From NCBI GenBank assembly GCA_013043825.1, contig JABDNM010000109.1, positions 1-47,280 of the forward strand: a DNA stretch of 47,280 nt, read 5' to 3'. The notes under the pieces were generated by a model. That model was not told the DNA's origin. It saw only the letters and a program-made list of their open reading frames with translations, and made no database searches. Origin of the DNA: Flavobacteriaceae bacterium (lineage in GTDB: Bacteria > Bacteroidota > Bacteroidia > Flavobacteriales > Flavobacteriaceae). Positions 2,913 to 38,510 of the stretch are shown one piece after another; within the stretch, counting starts at the first letter, position 1, and each line of letters begins with the position of its first letter. The translations under genes and the position numbers were made by a program.

Positions 2913-5123
2913 ATGAAGGTGAGACAACATATAATCATATCGATTCTTTTCATTTTCCTCTCGCAAGTGGGCCTGAATGCACAGACCAAACGAGCCGAGG
3001 CTTCTGAATTCATACTGAAAGGCCAGGTTTTGAATGCGGAAGATAACAGTCCCATACCATTGGTGAACGTTGAGATCACGGGGAAAGGATATGCAACCAC
3101 AAATAGGGCGGGCGAATTTCAGATCTCTGCCAAGGTGGGAGATGAACTAGTGATTCGCAGTGACGATTTTAAGACCATTTATCACATAGTCAAGGACCAA
3201 CAAAGGATCACGGTACGCGTTGAGAAGGCTTTGGAAGTGGAGGCGGTCATGTCGAAACGCTCGCGAAATGATGCGATCGATTACTTTAAAGTGTATATCG
3301 ATTCAGCCAAAATTGCTTTGAAAAGTGATGCTAAGAAAAGTATCGACTATGTGAACAAAGCCCTTGAGACCGTTACCGGAAAGCGAACCAATGAATTTCA
3401 AAACGCGGTTGCTTTTGAAACCCTGGGAGATATCAACCTGTATTGGCAATTACCGGACCTGGCGATCACCAATTACAAGGAAAGTATTCGATCCAGGCCT
3501 TTGGCAGCGACCCGGATAAAATTGGCCAAGGCCTTTATGATGAATAATAATTACCAGGAGAGTATTGGTGAATACAATAAGTTGCTTCAGCTAAACCTTT
3601 CCAATTACCAACGTGTGGAGGTTTTTGAGGGTTTGGGCGACAATTACAAGGCCACCAAGGATGCGATCAAAAGTGTATTCAATTATCAGAAGGCCCTGGA
3701 CTTAGCCAATCAACATAAGATCACGCCCAAGGTAACCGATTTGAATTCGAAAATAGGCGAGGCCTACGCTCAAAGTGGGGCCATCGAAGAGGCCCAGGAA
3801 TATTTTGGAAATTCATTGTTGCTTTCAGAAGGAGAAAATAAGAAACGAGCTGTTCAGGAAAAAGATAAAGTAGCAGATTTTTACAATCAGAAGCAAGATT
3901 TCGCCAAGGAGATCGAACTTCGCCAGGAGGCACTGAACGAATTGGAATCCATGGATGATGAGGAAGGGTTGCCCGAAAATAATTCGGGAGTTGGCCTGCT
4001 TTCCCCCCAGCGGCAAAATTACAAGATCGCGAACGCCTATGTTGCCCAGGATAAATACGAAGAAGCAATCCCGTTCCTGGAAAGGAGTATTAGTGAGGCC
4101 GATGCAAAGGAGGATTTGGTGGTTCAAAAAGATGCCACCCGAAAACTTTCCGAGATCTACCGCGATATTGGGGATTTCGACAAGGCTGCCGAGGGTTACC
4201 AGCGTTATGTAGAAGTAGTCGATGAGCTGTACGTAAAAAAGGAACAAGAACTCTCTCAAGCCACTCGTTTCAGTAAGGAGATCGCCCTTAAGCAAAACCG
4301 TATCTCCAGTTTGGAAAGTGAGCGAGCGATCAACGAAAGTCGATATAAACTCGCATTCGAAAATCAAGAACTCATTCAGAAGAACAACCTGGTTCAAAAA
4401 TGGATCATAGGATCGCTAATCGCCCTGGCTCTATTGCTATTATACACCGCTTACAGCCAGCGAAAAAATGCCAGGCAGCAGCAGTATGCCAACAATCTGC
4501 TTGCCTTGAAATCGCTTCGCACCCAGATGAATCCGCATTTTATCTTCAATGCCCTGAATTCAGTAAACAGTTTTATTGCGAGCAATGATGAGCGGGCCGC
4601 AAATAAGTATTTGAGCGAGTTCTCCCAATTGATGCGTTCGGTATTGGAGAATAGCGACGAGGACTTCATACCCCTGTCCAAGGAGATCGAATTGCTTCGC
4701 CTATATGTGAAGCTGGAACATTTCAGGTTCCGGGATAAATTCGATTACAAGGTAACAGTAGACGAAGCGCTGAATGTGGATGATTTCGTGATACCACCCA
4801 TGCTATTACAGCCCTACGTGGAGAATGCGGTATGGCATGGACTTCGCTACAAAGAAAAGAAGGGACTTTTGGAAATCGATTTTGCCCAGCGCGATTCAGA
4901 AACAGTTGTGATCACCATAACCGATGATGGAATTGGCCGGAAAAAATCCAAAGAATTTAAAACCGATCATCAAAAGAAACAAAAGTCGAAGGGAATGGGC
5001 AATATCAAACGACGAATTGCCATACTAAATGATATGTACAAGGATAAGGTGGATGTGACCGTAGAAGACTTGAACGACCAGGAAGAGGGAACACAGGTCC
5101 GCCTAATTTTAAAGAAAGATTAA
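2913..5123 (+). CDS. CarboxypepD-TPR sensor histidine kinase (LytS-type kinase domain)
   Basis: 736-residue membrane kinase. In order: signal peptide (to about residue 24, LNAQ); a CarboxypepD_reg-like beta-sandwich (about 32-105, FILKGQVLNAEDNSPIPLVN); TPR repeats (about 130-440); a coiled-coil linker; one transmembrane helix (about 497-515); and a His_kinase/PF06580 core. The phosphoacceptor is His542 in LRTQMNPHFIFNALNSV, the N-box is PYVENAVWHGL and the G-box is DDGIGRKKS. The TPR part is therefore probably periplasmic and senses an envelope signal. The cognate LytTR regulator starts one base after the stop, so translation is tightly linked. A carboxypeptidase-regulatory domain in a kinase sensor is less common than TPRs alone. 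The signal is unknown. Confidence 0.92.
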   Translation: MKVRQHIIISILFIFLSQVGLNAQTKRAEASEFILKGQVLNAEDNSPIPLVNVEITGKGYATTNRAGEFQISAKVGDELVIRSDDFKTIYHIVKDQQRITVRVEKALEVEAVMSKRSRNDAIDYFKVYIDSAKIALKSDAKKSIDYVNKALETVTGKRTNEFQNAVAFETLGDINLYWQLPDLAITNYKESIRSRPLAATRIKLAKAFMMNNNYQESIGEYNKLLQLNLSNYQRVEVFEGLGDNYKATKDAIKSVFNYQKALDLANQHKITPKVTDLNSKIGEAYAQSGAIEEAQEYFGNSLLLSEGENKKRAVQEKDKVADFYNQKQDFAKEIELRQEALNELESMDDEEGLPENNSGVGLLSPQRQNYKIANAYVAQDKYEEAIPFLERSISEADAKEDLVVQKDATRKLSEIYRDIGDFDKAAEGYQRYVEVVDELYVKKEQELSQATRFSKEIALKQNRISSLESERAINESRYKLAFENQELIQKNNLVQKWIIGSLIALALLLLYTAYSQRKNARQQQYANNLLALKSLRTQMNPHFIFNALNSVNSFIASNDERAANKYLSEFSQLMRSVLENSDEDFIPLSKEIELLRLYVKLEHFRFRDKFDYKVTVDEALNVDDFVIPPMLLQPYVENAVWHGLRYKEKKGLLEIDFAQRDSETVVITITDDGIGRKKSKEFKTDHQKKQKSKGMGNIKRRIAILNDMYKDKVDVTVEDLNDQEEGTQVRLILKKD

Positions 5124-33105: not shown

Positions 33106-35742
33106 ATGGCCAAGAAGATCACTCCTTTAATGCAGCAGTACAACACCATCAAGGCGAAATATCCCGATGCGTTGTTGTTATTTCGGGTGGGCGATTTTTA
33201 CGAAACTTTTGGCGAGGACGCAATTCGCGCGGCCGCCATACTCAATATCACACTTACGGCTCGAAATAACGGTGGGGACATGACCGAACTGGCTGGATTT
33301 CCACATCATTCCCTGAACACCTATTTGCCTAAATTAGTACTTGCCGGCTGCCGGGTGGCCATTTGTGATCAACTGGAGGATCCCAAGAAAACCAAGAAGA
33401 TCGTAAAGCGCGGCGTTACCGAATTGGTAACGCCCGGGGTCTCATTCAGCGATGATATTCTTGAGCGTACATCCAATAATTTCTTAGCGGCGGTTCATTT
33501 CGGTACTGTCGAGCGAGGCGCTGAGACCGCTCAACTAGGGGTGGCGTTTCTCGACGTATCTACCGGGGAGTTCCTTACCTCCCAGGGGAGTGTGGAATAC
33601 ATCGATAAATTACTGCAAAACTTCATACCCAGTGAGGTACTATTCAGTAAAAAAAATAGAAAGCAATTCAGCGCGTATTTTGGAGAGCGCTTCCATGAAT
33701 TCTATCTTGAGGACTGGATCTTTCAGCAAGATTATGCCTGGGAATCCTTGAACAAACAGTTCGGAACAAAGAATTTAAAAGGTTTTGGCGTAGATCATTT
33801 GAAGTTAGGGGTGATTGCCGCGGGTGCTGCGCTGCACTATTTGGGCGAGACCCAGCACCATGAATTACAGCACATCGCCAGGCTTACACGGATTGCCCAG
33901 GAGGATCATGTTTGGATGGACCGCTTTACAATTCGCAATCTGGAGTTGTATCATTCCCATCAGGAAAATGCCGTTACTTTGCTCGATGTGATCGATAAGA
34001 CCATCTCACCCATGGGAGGCCGTAAATTGAAACGCTGGATGGCACTTCCACTTAAGAACCCGGAACAAATCGTTCACAGACATGAGGTAGTAAGTTACCT
34101 GCTGGACAACACAGAAGTACTTACGTCTTACCGACAGCATTTGAAGCACATGGGGGATCTGGAACGTTTGATATCCAAAACGGCGACAGGGAGGATAAGC
34201 CCACGGGAGGTAATTCATTTAAAAAACACACTGGAAGCTGTAGTTCCTCTGAAGGCAACCGCTGTAGAGTCTAAAAACGAATCGTTAAAGATACTGGGGG
34301 AGCAGTTGAACGATTGCGGCCCGTTACGCGATAAGATCAAGGCTACCCTGAACGAAGATGCCCCGGTTCATGTTTTGAAAGGAGGAAGTATTGCGAGCGA
34401 TGTTTCCAGCGAATTGGATGAGTTAAGGGAGATCGCCCATGGGAGCAAAGCGTATCTTGACAATATGTTAAAGCGGGAGAGTGAAAGGACCGGAATTAGC
34501 TCCCTGAAGATAGCTTCGAACAATGTATTTGGGTATTATATCGAAGTGAGAAATACCCACAAGGAGAAGGTGCCCGAAGAATGGATTCGTAAGCAAACCC
34601 TTGTGAATGCCGAAAGATATATTACTGAAGAACTCAAGGAATACGAAACCAAGATCCTGGGTGCTGAAGAAAAGATCCTTGTGCTGGAACAAAGTCTTTT
34701 TTCGGAATTGGTTGAATGGATGACTCAGTTCATAGGGGCGGTCCAGCAAACAGCTTCTTTAATCGCCCAGTTGGACTGCCTATGTTCTTTTGCTGTACAA
34801 GCCATGGAGCACAATTACAGCCGTCCCCTGATAGATGAAAGTTACGATCTGGACATCAAAGAAGGTAGGCATCCGGTTATCGAGCAACAATTACCGCCCG
34901 ATAATCCATTCATTGCGAATGATGTCTTCCTGGATCGAGACAACCAGCAGATCATCATGATTACCGGGCCCAACATGAGTGGGAAAAGTGCTATCCTGCG
35001 TCAGACAGCCTTGATCGTGCTGCTTGCCCAAATGGGAAGTTTTGTTCCTGCCAAGGCAGTTCGGATGGGCTGCGTGGATAAGATATTTACCCGGGTTGGA
35101 GCCAGTGACAATATTTCCATGGGGGAATCCACTTTCATGGTTGAAATGAACGAAACTGCCAGTATTTTAAACAACATTTCGGAACGCTCCCTGGTTTTGT
35201 TGGATGAGATTGGGAGGGGCACGAGTACCTACGACGGGATTTCCATTGCCTGGGCTATCAGTGAATACCTGCACGAACATCCCTCTCGGGCAAAAACCTT
35301 GTCTGCAACCCATTATCATGAGCTCAATGAAATGACTGAAACCTTCGATCGCATCAAGAATTACAACGTATCTGTGAAAGAGATGAAGAATAAGGTATTG
35401 TTCCTTCGGAAGTTGGTTCCGGGCGGATCTCACCACAGTTTCGGGATCCATGTTGCAAAAATGGCTGGAATGCCATCCGCAGTGCTTAGTCGGGCCAACA
35501 AGATCCTTAAGCGCTTGGAGAAAAGTCATTCTTCCGAAGAGCTTTCGGATAAGATGCGGCAATTGTCTCAGGAGGAATTGCAGCTCAGTTTTTTTAAGTT
35601 GGACGATCCGCTGTTGGAGGAGATTCGGGATGAGATCTTACAGACCGACATCGATACGCTCACTCCGGTGGAAGCCTTGATGAAGTTGAATGAGATCAAG
35701 CGAATGTTACAACGAAGTGGTTCGATGAAATTCAAGAAATAG
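33106..35742 (+). CDS. mutS: DNA mismatch repair protein MutS
   Basis: 878 residues. Mismatch-reading motif FYE at 31-33 in [16 protein letters not shown]. Then connector, lever and clamp domains, and an ATPase with Walker A GPNMSGKS (621-628), [18 protein letters not shown] signature, Walker [17 protein letters not shown] and ATHYHEL. Binds mismatches and starts repair with MutL. The C-terminal ~80 residues include the helix-turn-helix dimer region and a tail. The tRNA operon follows; its promoter lies just past the stop. Confidence 0.97.
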
Positions 35743-35766
35743 GTCGATTTTTTTGCTTAAAAAGCC

Positions 35767-35796
35767 TTTGACATTGGCGTAAATATTTTAAATTTG
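35767..35796 (+). promoter_or_regulatory. Strong promoter of the tRNA-Gly/Leu operon
   Basis: TTTG at 35767-35770, 18-base spacer, TAAATTTG at 35789-35796: exact match to the Bacteroidota -33/-7 consensus. It is the best promoter match found in the window and lies 58 bases upstream of the first tRNA-like copy. A short hairpin GCCTAC/GTAGGC (35802-35821) covers the presumed start of the transcript. Confidence 0.78.
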
Positions 35797-35854
35797 CGCC
35801 TGCCTACTGGTTACCGTAGGCCATTTAGATCTTCTCAGGAAGTTCTTTATGAAT

Positions 35855-35939
35855 GCGAAAATAGCTCAGTTGGTACCCGCCCGTACCGGACGGTACGTTC
35901 GTGCGGGGAGCGCCATCCGCCGCGGCGGATGGAGGTCGC
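35855..35939 (+). pseudogene. Truncated tRNA-Gly-like copy 1, with D-region insert and replaced anticodon arm
   Basis: Begins GCGAAAATAGCTCAG like the intact tRNA-Gly, runs to TTGGTA, then carries a 32-base insert (35876-35907), then GAGCG and a palindrome CATCCGCCGCGGCGGATG in place of the anticodon arm, then GAGGTCGC. The T arm and 3' acceptor strand are missing; the copy ends in a 19-base AT-rich spacer (35940-35958). It cannot fold into a functional tRNA. It is transcribed, if at all, as part of the precursor of the downstream tRNAs. Confidence 0.85.
35876..35907. repeat. 32-bp palindromic insert within tRNA-like copy 1
   Basis: Exactly the extra 32 bases that make copy 1 longer than copy 2 (periods 104 and 72). 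It folds as outer CCCGC/GCGGG with inner CGTACCG/CGGTACG around a GA loop. GC content is high relative to its surroundings. It resembles a small REP-like palindromic element. Confidence 0.75.
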
Positions 35940-35958
35940 TAACAAAAATTGCAATAAT

Positions 35959-36011
35959 GCGAAAATAGCTCAGTTGGTAGAGCGTCATCCGCCGTGGCGG
36001 ATGGAGGTCGC
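35959..36011 (+). pseudogene. Truncated tRNA-Gly-like copy 2 with replaced anticodon arm
   Basis: Identical to the intact tRNA-Gly over the acceptor 5' strand and D arm (GCGAAAATAGCTCAGTTGG through GAGCG). Then the 17-base anticodon arm is replaced by TCATCCGCCGTGGCGGATGG, a near-perfect hairpin, followed by AGGTCGC. The T arm and 3' acceptor strand are absent. The same 19-base spacer as after copy 1 (36012-36030) leads to the intact gene. Confidence 0.87.
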
Positions 36012-36030
36012 TAACAAAAATTGCAATAAT

Positions 36031-36103
36031 GCGAAAATAGCTCAGTTGGTAGAGCGCCACCTTGCCAAGGTGGAGGTCGCGGGTTCGAATCCCGTTTTTC
36101 GCT
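36031..36103 (+). tRNA. tRNA-Gly (anticodon GCC)
   Basis: 73 bases. Acceptor GCGAAAA/TTTTCGC, D arm GCTC-AGTTGGTA-GAGC, anticodon arm CCACC-TTGCCAA-GGTGG with GCC at 36064-36066, variable AGGTC, T arm GCGGG-TTCGAAT-CCCGT, discriminator T. CCA is not encoded. It is the only complete member of three tandem copies. Confidence 0.97.
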
Positions 36104-36114
36104 CAAGTTTGCTA

Positions 36115-36199
36115 GCTGAAGTGGTGGAATTGGTAGACACGTTGGACTTAAAATCCAATGGCCATTATGGCCGTGCGGGTTCAAGTCCCGCCTTCAGTA
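36115..36199 (+). tRNA. tRNA-Leu (anticodon TAA)
   Basis: 85 bases. Acceptor GCTGAAG/CTTCAGT, anticodon arm TTGGA-CTTAAAA-TCCAA with TAA at 36149-36151, a long variable arm GGCCATTATGGCC typical of class II tRNA, T arm GCGGG-TTCAAGT-CCCGC, discriminator A. CCA not encoded. Separated by 11 bases from tRNA-Gly and followed by a terminator. Confidence 0.96.
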
Positions 36200-36210
36200 C
36201 AGATGCATAA

Positions 36211-36240
36211 GAAGCCGGATCCAGTGATTCGGCTTTTTTG
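36211..36240 (+). terminator. Terminator of the tRNA operon
   Basis: AAGCCG (36213-36218) pairs with CGGCTT (36230-36235), followed by a T-run. It lies 13 bases past tRNA-Leu. Confidence 0.82.
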
Positions 36241-36276
36241 TTTGACGAAACCAAGCAAACTGGTTTGTGATGGTTG

Positions 36277-36369
36277 AGGAAAACAAAAAAGCAATCCGAC
36301 CTTTGTCGGATGAGGCTTTTATTCTCAAGATGTTGAAGCGGGACTCGCGAGGGTAGTGAGCAATTCCCG
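36277..36369. repeat. 93-bp direct repeat, copy A, containing a bidirectional terminator hairpin
   Basis: Matches copy B (36382-36474) with 5 mismatches in 93 bases; period 105. The first part folds as AAAAGC-ATCCGAC-CTTT-GTCGGAT-GCTTTT (36287-36320), a symmetric terminator that could stop the minus-strand gene at 36517. The second part has a weak CGGGA/TCCCG stem. No gene in this stretch. Confidence 0.8.
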
Positions 36370-36381
36370 TTCTTGCTATTC

Positions 36382-36474
36382 AGGAAAACAAAAAAGCAAT
36401 CCGACCTTTGTTGGATGAGGCTTTTATTCTCAAGCTGTTGAAGCGGGACTAGCGAGGGTAGTGAGTAATTCTCG
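36382..36474. repeat. 93-bp direct repeat, copy B
   Basis: Same layout as copy A. The terminator stem at 36392-36425 has one G-T pair (GTTGGAT) where A is perfect. It lies closest to the end of the minus-strand membrane-protein gene and is its most likely terminator. Confidence 0.8.
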
Positions 36475-36516
36475 CAAACAACCCTCCCAAGATTTATTTA
36501 TGCTTCTATCTTCCAA

Positions 36517-37035
36517 CTAAAGCTCATCACTGAAGATCTTATTGATCTCTTCGTCCATTTCATCCTTCAAATTTTCGGAGGCCGATTGTTTTCGGCTTAG
36601 TAAAATGGAAATATAGATGAGGAAGAAAAGTATGGGTAAGATGACCGGAAGTGAGTACCAGAAGTCGAATTCGTCTATGTACTGAATATTGTGGTTGATG
36701 ACTCCTGAGAGTTGGAACAGGAACATGGTAAATGGAACCAAGATGGCATATTTCCACCAGTTTCGCGACGTTAAAAACCAGACTCCTGTGAGCAGTACAA
36801 AAGTAAGTTTCGTGAACAAGGTATAGATATAACTTTGGACCGTGCTAAAACCACCCGATTTGATTGTTCCGAAGAAAGTCTTCCACTCCGAACCTTCCGC
36901 CGGGGCCAATCGATAGAGATAAAACAAAAAGGGTGTTGCTATTAAGATTAAAATGAGCAACACCCCAATAAAGACAGATTTTCGGTTATCCGTTTGGCGG
37001 GATCTCAATTTTGTCTTTGTCGATTTGTTGTTCAT
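36517..37035 (-). CDS. Hypothetical four-helix membrane protein
   Basis: 172 residues from ATG at 37035 (a GTG one codon earlier is possible). After a basic N-terminus (NNKSTKTKLRSRQTDNRKS) come four hydrophobic helices at about 23-41, 70-90, 95-112 and 125-147, and a charged, acidic tail (KDEMDEEINKIFSDEL). I recognise no family. The 5' end overlaps a tiny lipoprotein gene by 50 bases in another frame, so the pair is probably translated from one transcript. Function unknown. Confidence 0.7.
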   Translation of the reverse strand: MNNKSTKTKLRSRQTDNRKSVFIGVLLILILIATPFLFYLYRLAPAEGSEWKTFFGTIKSGGFSTVQSYIYTLFTKLTFVLLTGVWFLTSRNWWKYAILVPFTMFLFQLSGVINHNIQYIDEFDFWYSLPVILPILFFLIYISILLSRKQSASENLKDEMDEEINKIFSDEL

Positions 37036-37114
37036 CACTTGTTAGGGCTTCTGGAGTACAACTGGTAGATAATACCAGGCCTCCAATTGCTAAAATAAAG
37101 AATAATTTTCTCAT
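36986..37114 (-). CDS. Tiny lipoprotein overlapping the membrane-protein gene
   Basis: 42 residues, too short for usual gene callers. ATG at 37114 gives MRKLFFILAIGGLVLSTSC, a clear lipoprotein signal with lipobox STSC (Cys19), then a 23-residue mature part TPEALTSDEQQIDKDKIEIP ending in PNG. Stop TAA at 36986-36988. The next gene begins inside it at 37035 in a different frame. Short lipoproteins with a CTPEAL mature start look familiar from other Flavobacteriaceae, but I know no function. The signal quality and operon layout support it. Confidence 0.65.
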   Translation of the reverse strand: MRKLFFILAIGGLVLSTSCTPEALTSDEQQIDKDKIEIPPNG

Positions 37115-38108: not shown

Positions 38109-38510
38109 ATGAAAAACTTCAAACCAGTAATTATCGCATTAATCGCTGCCTTTTTTTTTATGGCATGCCAGACAGAAGACTTCGCCGATCTAACAGGCGA
38201 TGAGACCAACCTGATCTACCAGGACGAAACCACTGAACGTGCAAGCTCAGACCAACAAGAGCCAAGGCCAACACGTACCGACGGGGATGATGACATGCCG
38301 GAAGGTAAAGGAGGAACCGACGGCGACGATGACATGCCGGAAGGAAAAGGTGGAACCGATGGAGACGATGACATGCCGGAAGGTAAAGGCGGAACCGATG
38401 GAGACGATGACATGCCAGAAGGTAAAGGAGGAACCGATGGAGACGATGATATGCCGGAAGGTAAAGGAGGAACCGATGGAGACGATGATATGCCCGATCA
38501 AGGAAATTAA
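38109..38510 (+). CDS. Acidic lipoprotein with 13-residue tandem repeats
   Basis: 133 residues. A lipoprotein signal ends FFMAC (Cys20). A 38-residue acidic linker follows, then five exact or near-exact copies of GDDDMPEGKGGTD and a partial sixth (GDDDMPDQGN). The DNA repeat is 39 bp (38283-38507) with only synonymous differences, so the protein repeat is under selection or recently expanded. Asp-rich loops could bind calcium; no known domain. A terminator-like hairpin follows, then a sensor kinase gene. It is probably displayed at the surface. Function unknown. Confidence 0.82.
   Translation: MKNFKPVIIALIAAFFFMACQTEDFADLTGDETNLIYQDETTERASSDQQEPRPTRTDGDDDMPEGKGGTDGDDDMPEGKGGTDGDDDMPEGKGGTDGDDDMPEGKGGTDGDDDMPEGKGGTDGDDDMPDQGN
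38283..38507 (+). repeat. 39-bp in-frame tandem repeat
   Basis: Five full units (38283, 38322, 38361, 38400, 38439) and a 30-base partial unit at 38478, all in frame. Differences among units fall at third codon positions. Repeat number could vary by slippage or recombination. Confidence 0.92.

Follow-up and report, generated by a model that had tools for sequence, protein, structure and literature searches.

What accounts for tandem, broken copies of a tRNA gene standing in front of the intact gene? The question is raised by a tRNA-Gly gene of a Flavobacteriaceae bacterium (GenBank assembly GCA_013043825.1, contig JABDNM010000109.1), which lies in a 47,280-nt stretch of DNA that we analyzed as a whole (the window). 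We propose that the array is probably a compact version, with no nuclease gene, of a group of tRNA-gene elements in which homing is combined with rebuilding of the tRNA. The group, which is linked to GIY-YIG genes, is apparently undescribed: a limited literature search, covering parts of the papers that it returned, found no description of this layout of fragment, palindrome, and GIY-YIG gene.

RESULTS

Two broken 5' units precede the intact tRNA-Gly gene

The original prediction placed two 5' tRNA-Gly fragments ahead of the intact gene, and both are present, beginning at positions 35855 and 35959. The parts of the locus are as follows.

35767 to 35796, + strand: promoter-like motif, TTTG-N18-TAAATTTG (regular-expression match in the window and 12/12 relatives)
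35855 to 35875, + strand: copy 1, tRNA-Gly nt 1 to 21, the acceptor 5' strand and part of the D arm (exact 21-nt match)
35876 to 35907, + strand: palindrome 1, 32 nt, CCCGCCCGTACCGGACGGTACGTTCGTGCGGG, in the D loop after GGTA of copy 1 (from sequence; close copies in the genus)
35908 to 35913, + strand: copy 1 resumed, tRNA-Gly nt 22 to 27, GAGCGC (from sequence)
35914 to 35931, + strand: palindrome 2, CATCCGCCGCGGCGGATG, replacing the anticodon arm of copy 1 (from sequence)
35932 to 35939, + strand: end of the tRNA-like part of copy 1, GAGGTCGC, tRNA nt 43 to 50 (from sequence)
35940 to 35958, + strand: 19-nt spacer after copy 1, TAACAAAAATTGCAATAAT (from sequence)
35959 to 35984, + strand: copy 2, tRNA-Gly nt 1 to 26 (exact 26-nt match)
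35986 to 36003, + strand: palindrome of copy 2, CATCCGCCGTGGCGGATG, replacing the anticodon arm (from sequence)
36004 to 36011, + strand: end of copy 2, GAGGTCGC, tRNA nt 43 to 50 (from sequence)
36012 to 36030, + strand: 19-nt spacer after copy 2, identical to the first (from sequence)
36031 to 36104, + strand: intact tRNA-Gly(GCC) (ARAGORN; Rfam RF00005, 75.9 bits)
36115 to 36200, + strand: tRNA-Leu(TAA), the next gene of the pair (ARAGORN; Rfam)

Copy 1 extends in all from 35855 to 35939 and copy 2 from 35959 to 36011. As predicted, neither copy has the remainder of the T arm or the 3' acceptor strand, the tRNA-like part of each stopping at nt 50, and the 19-base spacer that follows each of them is the same. 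The accompanying claim of an exact match through the D arm is correct for copy 2, over 26 nt, but not for copy 1, which matches over 21 nt before the 32-nt palindrome splits its D arm; copy 2 has no such D-loop palindrome. To the earlier description we add that a palindrome of the form CATCCGCCG(C/T)GGCGGATG replaces the anticodon arm in both copies. A tandem repeat caller reported the array as a 72-bp repeat with 2.1 copies and 96% matches, a copy number taken from one draft assembly (257 contigs, 2.59 Mb, 82.5% complete), and the two units of 72 nt are identical except at 2 positions. With up to one mismatch allowed, TCCGCCGYGGCGGA matches the window four times (at two sites, on both strands) where 0.01 matches are expected, so a chance origin of this repeat is excluded.

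The single promoter ahead of the array, also part of the prediction, corresponds to one promoter-like motif, which lies upstream of tRNA-Gly in all 12 relatives examined and resembles what we take to be the -33/-7 type of Bacteroidota. The gene upstream of the array is mutS (Pfam MutS domains I to V). Two other repeats were noted in the window. A 105-bp direct repeat (1.9 copies, 95% matches) lies behind tRNA-Leu at 36277 to 36471, and the open reading frame (ORF) at 38109 to 38510 contains a 39-bp coding repeat at 38277 to 38494 (5.6 copies) that translates into GTDGDDDMPEGKG repeats.

The locus is filled in some relatives and empty in others

Comparison of the mutS-tRNA-Gly locus across related strains had been put forward as a check on the prediction. 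With mutS directly upstream of tRNA-Gly, the site is filled in the window genome (G000) and in G006, G113, and G015 and empty in G009, G019, and G021. G006, of the same genus, and G113, of another, each have one unit before tRNA-Gly with ATCCGCC..GGCGGAT in the anticodon arm, the G006 unit bearing a longer D-loop palindrome in addition; the tRNA-Gly fragment of G015 carries TCCCGATAGCTATCGGGA. Within the 250 to 300 nt inspected upstream, an intact tRNA-Gly alone was found in G001, G002, G003, G007, G008, and G020 as well as in the three empty genomes above. A family-wide search, with a pattern that misses forms such as those of G006 and G015, matched 13 of 199 genomes; ordinary tandem tRNA genes with a T arm made up 10 of these matches, and fragment units were present in the other three (G000, G113, and G120; in G120 the unit lies at a tRNA-Trp-like gene and has TCACGCCACGGCGTGA). 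The feature is thus sporadic within the family. Loss can also produce a sporadic presence.

Comparison of window positions 33106 to 37038 with L010, L011, L012, L013, L014, and L015 showed the tRNA-Gly/tRNA-Leu pair to be inverted in relatives between mutS and the gene at 36517 to 37038; a relative of the latter gene lies upstream of tRNA-Gly in G001, G002, G003, G008, and G020, with mutS downstream in G002 and G020. The pair in G001 (L010, about 3137 to 4010) is accompanied by a GIY-YIG gene and by three 3' pieces of tRNA-Leu that carry TCCCGATAGCTATCGGGA in the T loop; the pair is therefore hit on the 3' side too.

Partial copies follow an orientation rule and break at recurrent points

Exact pieces of at least 14 nt of each tRNA were sought within 1.5 kb of that tRNA. 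In the window genome, 6 of 18 tRNA loci had such pieces, and all 9 pieces were on the strand of the tRNA, the four 5' pieces upstream of it and the five 3' pieces downstream. The same orientation rule held in G003, where the raw result of 12 pieces at 10/30 loci became 10 pieces at 8 loci (four 5' pieces upstream, six 3' pieces downstream) after correction for two loci that represent one tRNA-Gly scored twice against a neighboring tRNA at a contig end. When tRNAs were instead compared with other loci as a control, pieces were found in 3/306 and 19/866 pairs.

The breaks gather at a few positions. The break is at nt 22 in 15 of the 29 five-prime pieces, and three-prime pieces start mostly at nt 48 to 49 or 58 to 63. 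Of 56 pieces, 37 have a perfect stem of at least 6 no more than 50 nt from the break, compared with 499 of 3,561 control 50-mers, in a count that enters the pieces of tandem arrays repeatedly and includes many loci fetched for having pieces; no such stem was found at the remaining 19 breaks. Across nine genomes of the genus, the palindrome seed CCCGCCCGTACCG had 15 hits: 10 in tRNA 5' fragments, 4 in palindromes elsewhere, and 1 outside any palindrome. By sequence, the 10 fragments derive from tRNA-Gly, -Ala, -Arg, -His, and -Met (the intact copy of one is lost at a contig end), and in 9 of them the seed directly follows GG(N)TA of the D loop. The window array thus carries a palindrome at a recurrent break point, the D loop, as do tRNA-Ala, -Arg, -His, and -Met fragments. 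All exact matches to the strict palindrome TCCGCC..GGCGGA in the window genome, at three sites, fall within tRNA fragments. We considered and rejected the idea that this is a tRNA-only repeat; the looser form ATCCGCC-N0-10-GGCGGAT also occurs in hairpins of the genus away from tRNAs and is therefore no marker on its own.

Short GIY-YIG genes are associated with partial tRNA genes

The window genome has seven matches to the GIY-YIG profile PF01541, five of them in short ORFs, and for four of these five, a tRNA with a partial copy nearby is no more than about 730 bp away. None of the seven is on the contig of the array (C139). The array shares with the group a same-strand partial copy with the 5' part upstream and has no GIY-YIG gene in or beside it, which makes it a nuclease-less relative and not a full member; since it contains no nuclease gene, its link to the nucleases is drawn from palindrome, break point, and layout. 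Among the loci inspected, no GIY-YIG gene was located inside a broken tRNA-Gly.

We counted short GIY-YIG genes in 21 genomes, examining 37 of 40 matches (three weak partial ones were excluded, and a few windows were cut by contig ends). A tRNA lay within 1.5 kb at 16 of the 37 loci and was absent from that range at 21. Twelve of the 16 had a piece of that tRNA, on the same strand in 11 cases and on the opposite strand only in one (L223). GIY-YIG matches in long ORFs, of which 19 of 44 served as controls, had a tRNA in reach in 0/19 cases. A profile of four tRNA-linked nucleases matched 66 of 395 genomes of the order at an E value of 1e-12 or better; 30 loci among the matches listed included 27 with a tRNA within 800 bp and 25 with a piece of it, in a sample that leans toward this result, the profile having been built from tRNA-linked proteins and the window genome's own locus, one of them, being included.

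Residues Y5, Y16, G18, R26, H30, and E62, which we take to be the GIY-YIG active-site set, are invariant in an alignment of four tRNA-linked nucleases, and it is at the sister loci only that a domain above the PF01541 cutoff with these residues is found. The only solved relatives found were the UPF0213 structures PDB 1YWL (E value, 2e-6) and 1ZG2 (6e-6), and an NCBIfam search with four nucleases gave no match. A role as a defense system was considered and set aside; PADLOC matched PDC-S14 weakly (E values, 2e-4 and 1e-3) for one of three nucleases and gave nothing for the other two.

At many sister loci, a short GIY-YIG ORF lies beside the broken and intact tRNA copies or between them, and the part that is broken is present again in the adjacent intact copy. 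Two mirror forms were distinguished. In the upstream form (L185, L195, L202, L213, and L219), a broken 5' part is followed by a palindrome, the nuclease gene, and the intact tRNA. The downstream form (L182, L194, L198, L201, and L010) consists of the intact tRNA, a terminator-like hairpin, the nuclease gene, a palindrome, a tRNA 3' part, and a copy of the hairpin, one of these parts being absent from some loci. Whole downstream nuclease units also occur in tandem, at L341 (929 to 3824, G196; 364 bp, 7.9 copies) and at L343 (739 to 2641, G321, a one-contig genome; 365 bp, 5.2 copies). Compact units accompany nuclease genes as well: the tRNA-Pro gene of G527 is preceded by five visible compact 5' units, one with Ns, beside a nuclease gene, and multiunit compact arrays stand beside nuclease genes on contigs L102 (Shapirobacteria), L104 (Bacteroidia), and L148 (Bacteroidetes).

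We built a tree from 39 tRNA-linked nucleases; 19 of its 36 inner branches are weakly supported. The label for position upstream or downstream of the intact tRNA requires 4 changes on this tree, compared with 12.3 in shuffles, none of 500 of which went as low, and a single clade (SH-aLRT, 96) unites all 10 tRNA-Met rows with one tRNA-Gln row. Such clustering of labels is the expectation for target-specific homing nucleases; old insertions inherited with the gene, or shared descent, can also give it.

The tRNA-Ala locus occurs in compact and nuclease-bearing forms

The closest match to copy 1 of the window is the tRNA-Ala locus of the same genome, which reads tRNA nt 1 to 22, palindrome CCCGCCCGTACCGAACGCTACGTTCGGGCGGG, GAGCGC, nuclease ORF, and intact tRNA-Ala. 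The D-loop point is the same, the palindrome is nearly identical, and the nuclease gene lies inside. G003 has a compact unit without a nuclease at its tRNA-Ala, and the tRNA-Ala locus of the window genome shares the fragment and palindrome of G003 but has the nuclease and other surroundings. The 700 nt upstream of tRNA-Ala in G003 align with G002 (78% over 692 nt) and G004 (73% over 699 nt) and, in shorter stretches, with G007 and G008, and in all four of these genomes the intact tRNA-Ala gene stands alone (the comparison covers the 8 of 13 tRNA-Ala loci that fitted the search pattern, to which G004 was added). This case provides our best evidence that compact and nuclease-bearing forms belong together. 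Filled and empty alleles in relatives, the sign of a homing element for which we looked, occur both at tRNA-Ala and at the tRNA-Gly beside mutS.

Closely spaced 5' tRNA fragments occur in many phyla

Partial tRNA arrays of this kind had been described as rarely reported in bacteria. That may hold for print, where our limited literature search found none, but not for genomes, where they are common: a scan for two D arms too close to each other for an intact tRNA to lie between them gave at least 115 loci (named genome contigs). The titles among the matches listed include Bacteroidales, Chitinophagaceae, Patescibacteria-type lineages, Fibrobacterota, Spirochaetota, Hydrogenedentota, Acidobacteriota, Pseudomonadota, and many Clostridia. 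A T-loop motif is retained in 9 of the 126 units of the at least 115 loci listed, and therefore not all are fragments of the kind seen in the window. A GIY-YIG ORF (E value up to 1e-3) was present in the fetched DNA of 8 of the at least 115 loci, namely, L057 and L132 (Acidobacteriota), L076 (Patescibacteria), L102, L104, L148, L137 (unclassified), and L150 (Omnitrophota); seven of these ORFs are no farther than roughly 150 bp from the array or from its intact tRNA, and that of L076 is about 700 bp away. Arrays with nuclease genes were thus seen in Bacteroidota, Patescibacteria-type lineages, Acidobacteriota, and Omnitrophota.

The acceptor strand is common to the unit and the next tRNA in 33 of 44 units with a perfect stem of at least 6 and in 21 of the other 76, six of the 126 units from these loci having been dropped for Ns. 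By stem and acceptor sharing there are at least two classes, and a single origin of all short-spaced 5' fragments was rejected. Clostridia contigs (L063, L088, L090, L094, L097, L101, L105, L110, L113, L160 to L163, and L169) have tRNA-Phe-like 5' fragments at a spacing of about 56 nt, with no palindrome and with an acceptor strand often unlike that of the next tRNA; this class is possibly a separate phenomenon, and we do not assign it to the group.

DISCUSSION

A proposed course of breakage and rebuilding

In the reading that we favor, the nuclease would cut the tRNA gene at the D arm or the T arm, depending on the type of element, and repair would copy the element into the cut gene. The tRNA segment carried by the element would then restore a working tRNA, which would make insertion into an essential gene survivable, and tandem multiplication of units could follow. 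No nuclease gene is present in the window, where two tandem 5' units would be left, their transcript forming a leader of the tRNA that RNase P would presumably remove. The layout, the positions, the association with nuclease genes, and the filled and empty sites were observed directly; cutting, copying, and immunity are inferences. A point against homing is that the presumed cut site is still present in an intact tRNA gene, whose immunity the proposal leaves unexplained.

A broader version of this proposal, which we advance tentatively and regard as somewhat doubtful, is that these are natural "home-and-rescue" selfish elements of several phyla. A GIY-YIG nuclease would cut an essential tRNA gene, the element would be copied in, the old copy would be left dead and marked by a palindrome, and the element's own segment would rebuild the gene, with nuclease lineages specialized for particular tRNAs and compact nuclease-less arrays left behind. 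If so, tRNA genes, whose breakage a cell cannot afford, would harbor widespread selfish DNA that survives by repairing its own damage. Odd tRNA fragments in annotations would then have an explanation, many small GIY-YIG genes would have a role that they have so far lacked, and engineered home-and-rescue drives would have a natural counterpart.

Alternative explanations

The main rival is that the fragments are neutral relics, in which tandem tRNA duplications arising by slippage or unequal crossing-over lost their 3' ends, self-moving REP- or MITE-like palindromes settled in them, and the GIY-YIG genes are passengers. The near identity of the two 72-nt units is what fresh tandem duplications would leave, 4 of the 15 seed hits are palindromes outside tRNAs, and the nuclease-unit arrays of L341 and L343 show that tandem multiplication works here. 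We nonetheless consider this explanation unlikely because random decay predicts neither the gathering of breaks at nt 22 (15 of 29), nor the placement of 10 of 15 palindrome seed hits within tRNA fragments, nor the tie of short GIY-YIG genes, and not of long-ORF controls, to partial tRNAs. Relics of recombination were among three ideas offered with the original prediction and fit best of the three; the idea does not account for the palindromes, for the rule of orientation, or for the nuclease genes found at sister loci.

The other two ideas, stable tRNA-half-like RNAs and decoys, fall under a functional-RNA explanation, to which a structured leader controlling the folding or processing of tRNA-Gly may be added; we regard it as improbable. 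A promoter-like motif is kept in front of the array, and the place of the hairpin is constant while its sequence changes in Bacteroidota tRNA-Gly units (L075, L084, L085, L100, L107, L112, L114, and L144). The region folds better than shuffled sequences (z = -6.4), although low free energy is expected of palindromes anyway. With one unit in front, the cloverleaf has a predicted probability of 9e-4 if the unit is the palindrome-bearing copy 2 and of 3e-7 if it is a native 5' piece. With two units, as in the window, the palindromes give 3e-4 and native arms 8e-4, compared with 0.5 for the tRNA alone, so that nothing is gained. The idea that the palindromes act as insulators that shield the intact tRNA fold was set aside after this mixed outcome between one and two units, to which we gave no weight in either direction. 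The array is also missing from the same mutS-tRNA-Gly site in G009, G019, and G021, and the proposed decoy and tRNA-half functions are thus unsupported. We propose no product of their own for the window units, and nothing in the analysis supports one.

Misassembly of repeated tRNA sequence in a draft metagenome is very improbable and, for the layout, largely refuted: the draft has 257 contigs, the G006 contig ends right behind the intact tRNA, and some arrays elsewhere contain Ns, but G006 and G113, which are independent genomes, carry this kind of unit at that gene too, the tRNA-piece layout recurs in single-contig assemblies of 4.8 and 4.5 Mb (G321 and G179), and the window copies differ, with the D-loop palindrome in one copy only.

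Comparison with known systems

Free-standing GIY-YIG homing endonuclease genes occur in T4-like phages. Like them, the elements proposed here have a small GIY-YIG gene beside its presumed target, and the nuclease lineages follow the target gene. Unlike them, the target is a tRNA gene, a piece of it is repeated, the dead copy bears a palindrome as its mark, and cutting is presumed. REP/REPIN sequences, MITE-like repeats, and Rickettsia palindromic elements are short palindromes repeated in a genome; the palindromes described here are likewise short and repeated within a genome but have two-thirds of their seed hits (10/15) in tRNA fragments and a GIY-YIG gene as neighbor. The UPF0213 proteins of known structure (1YWL and 1ZG2) are relatives by sequence that are named hypothetical, with no tie to tRNA genes in the search result, and the accessible part of PMC1564403 mentions tRNA three times, in no case with regard to genes beside tRNAs.

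Two systems reside in bacterial tRNA genes themselves. Group I introns with homing endonucleases occur there, according to the portion of PMC3984707 available to us, and, as here, mobile-type DNA in a tRNA gene comes with a means to keep the tRNA working. The difference is that the tRNA would here be restored by a duplicated segment and not by splicing; an Rfam scan of the window returned two tRNA hits only, with no intron family at threshold and no intron core. For tRNA-targeting integrative elements, the portion of PMC9897764 available gives integration as one origin of partial tRNA genes, and in both cases the element supplies the missing part of the tRNA and leaves an orphan fragment. In the window, 19-nt spacers alone separate the parts, with no integrase and cargo between them as in a tRNA-integrating island. 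As far as that portion allows comparison, the elements described here differ in having units of about 70 to 370 bp, 5' and 3' forms, a tandem arrangement, and a palindrome at the break, and their compact units leave no room for an integrase.
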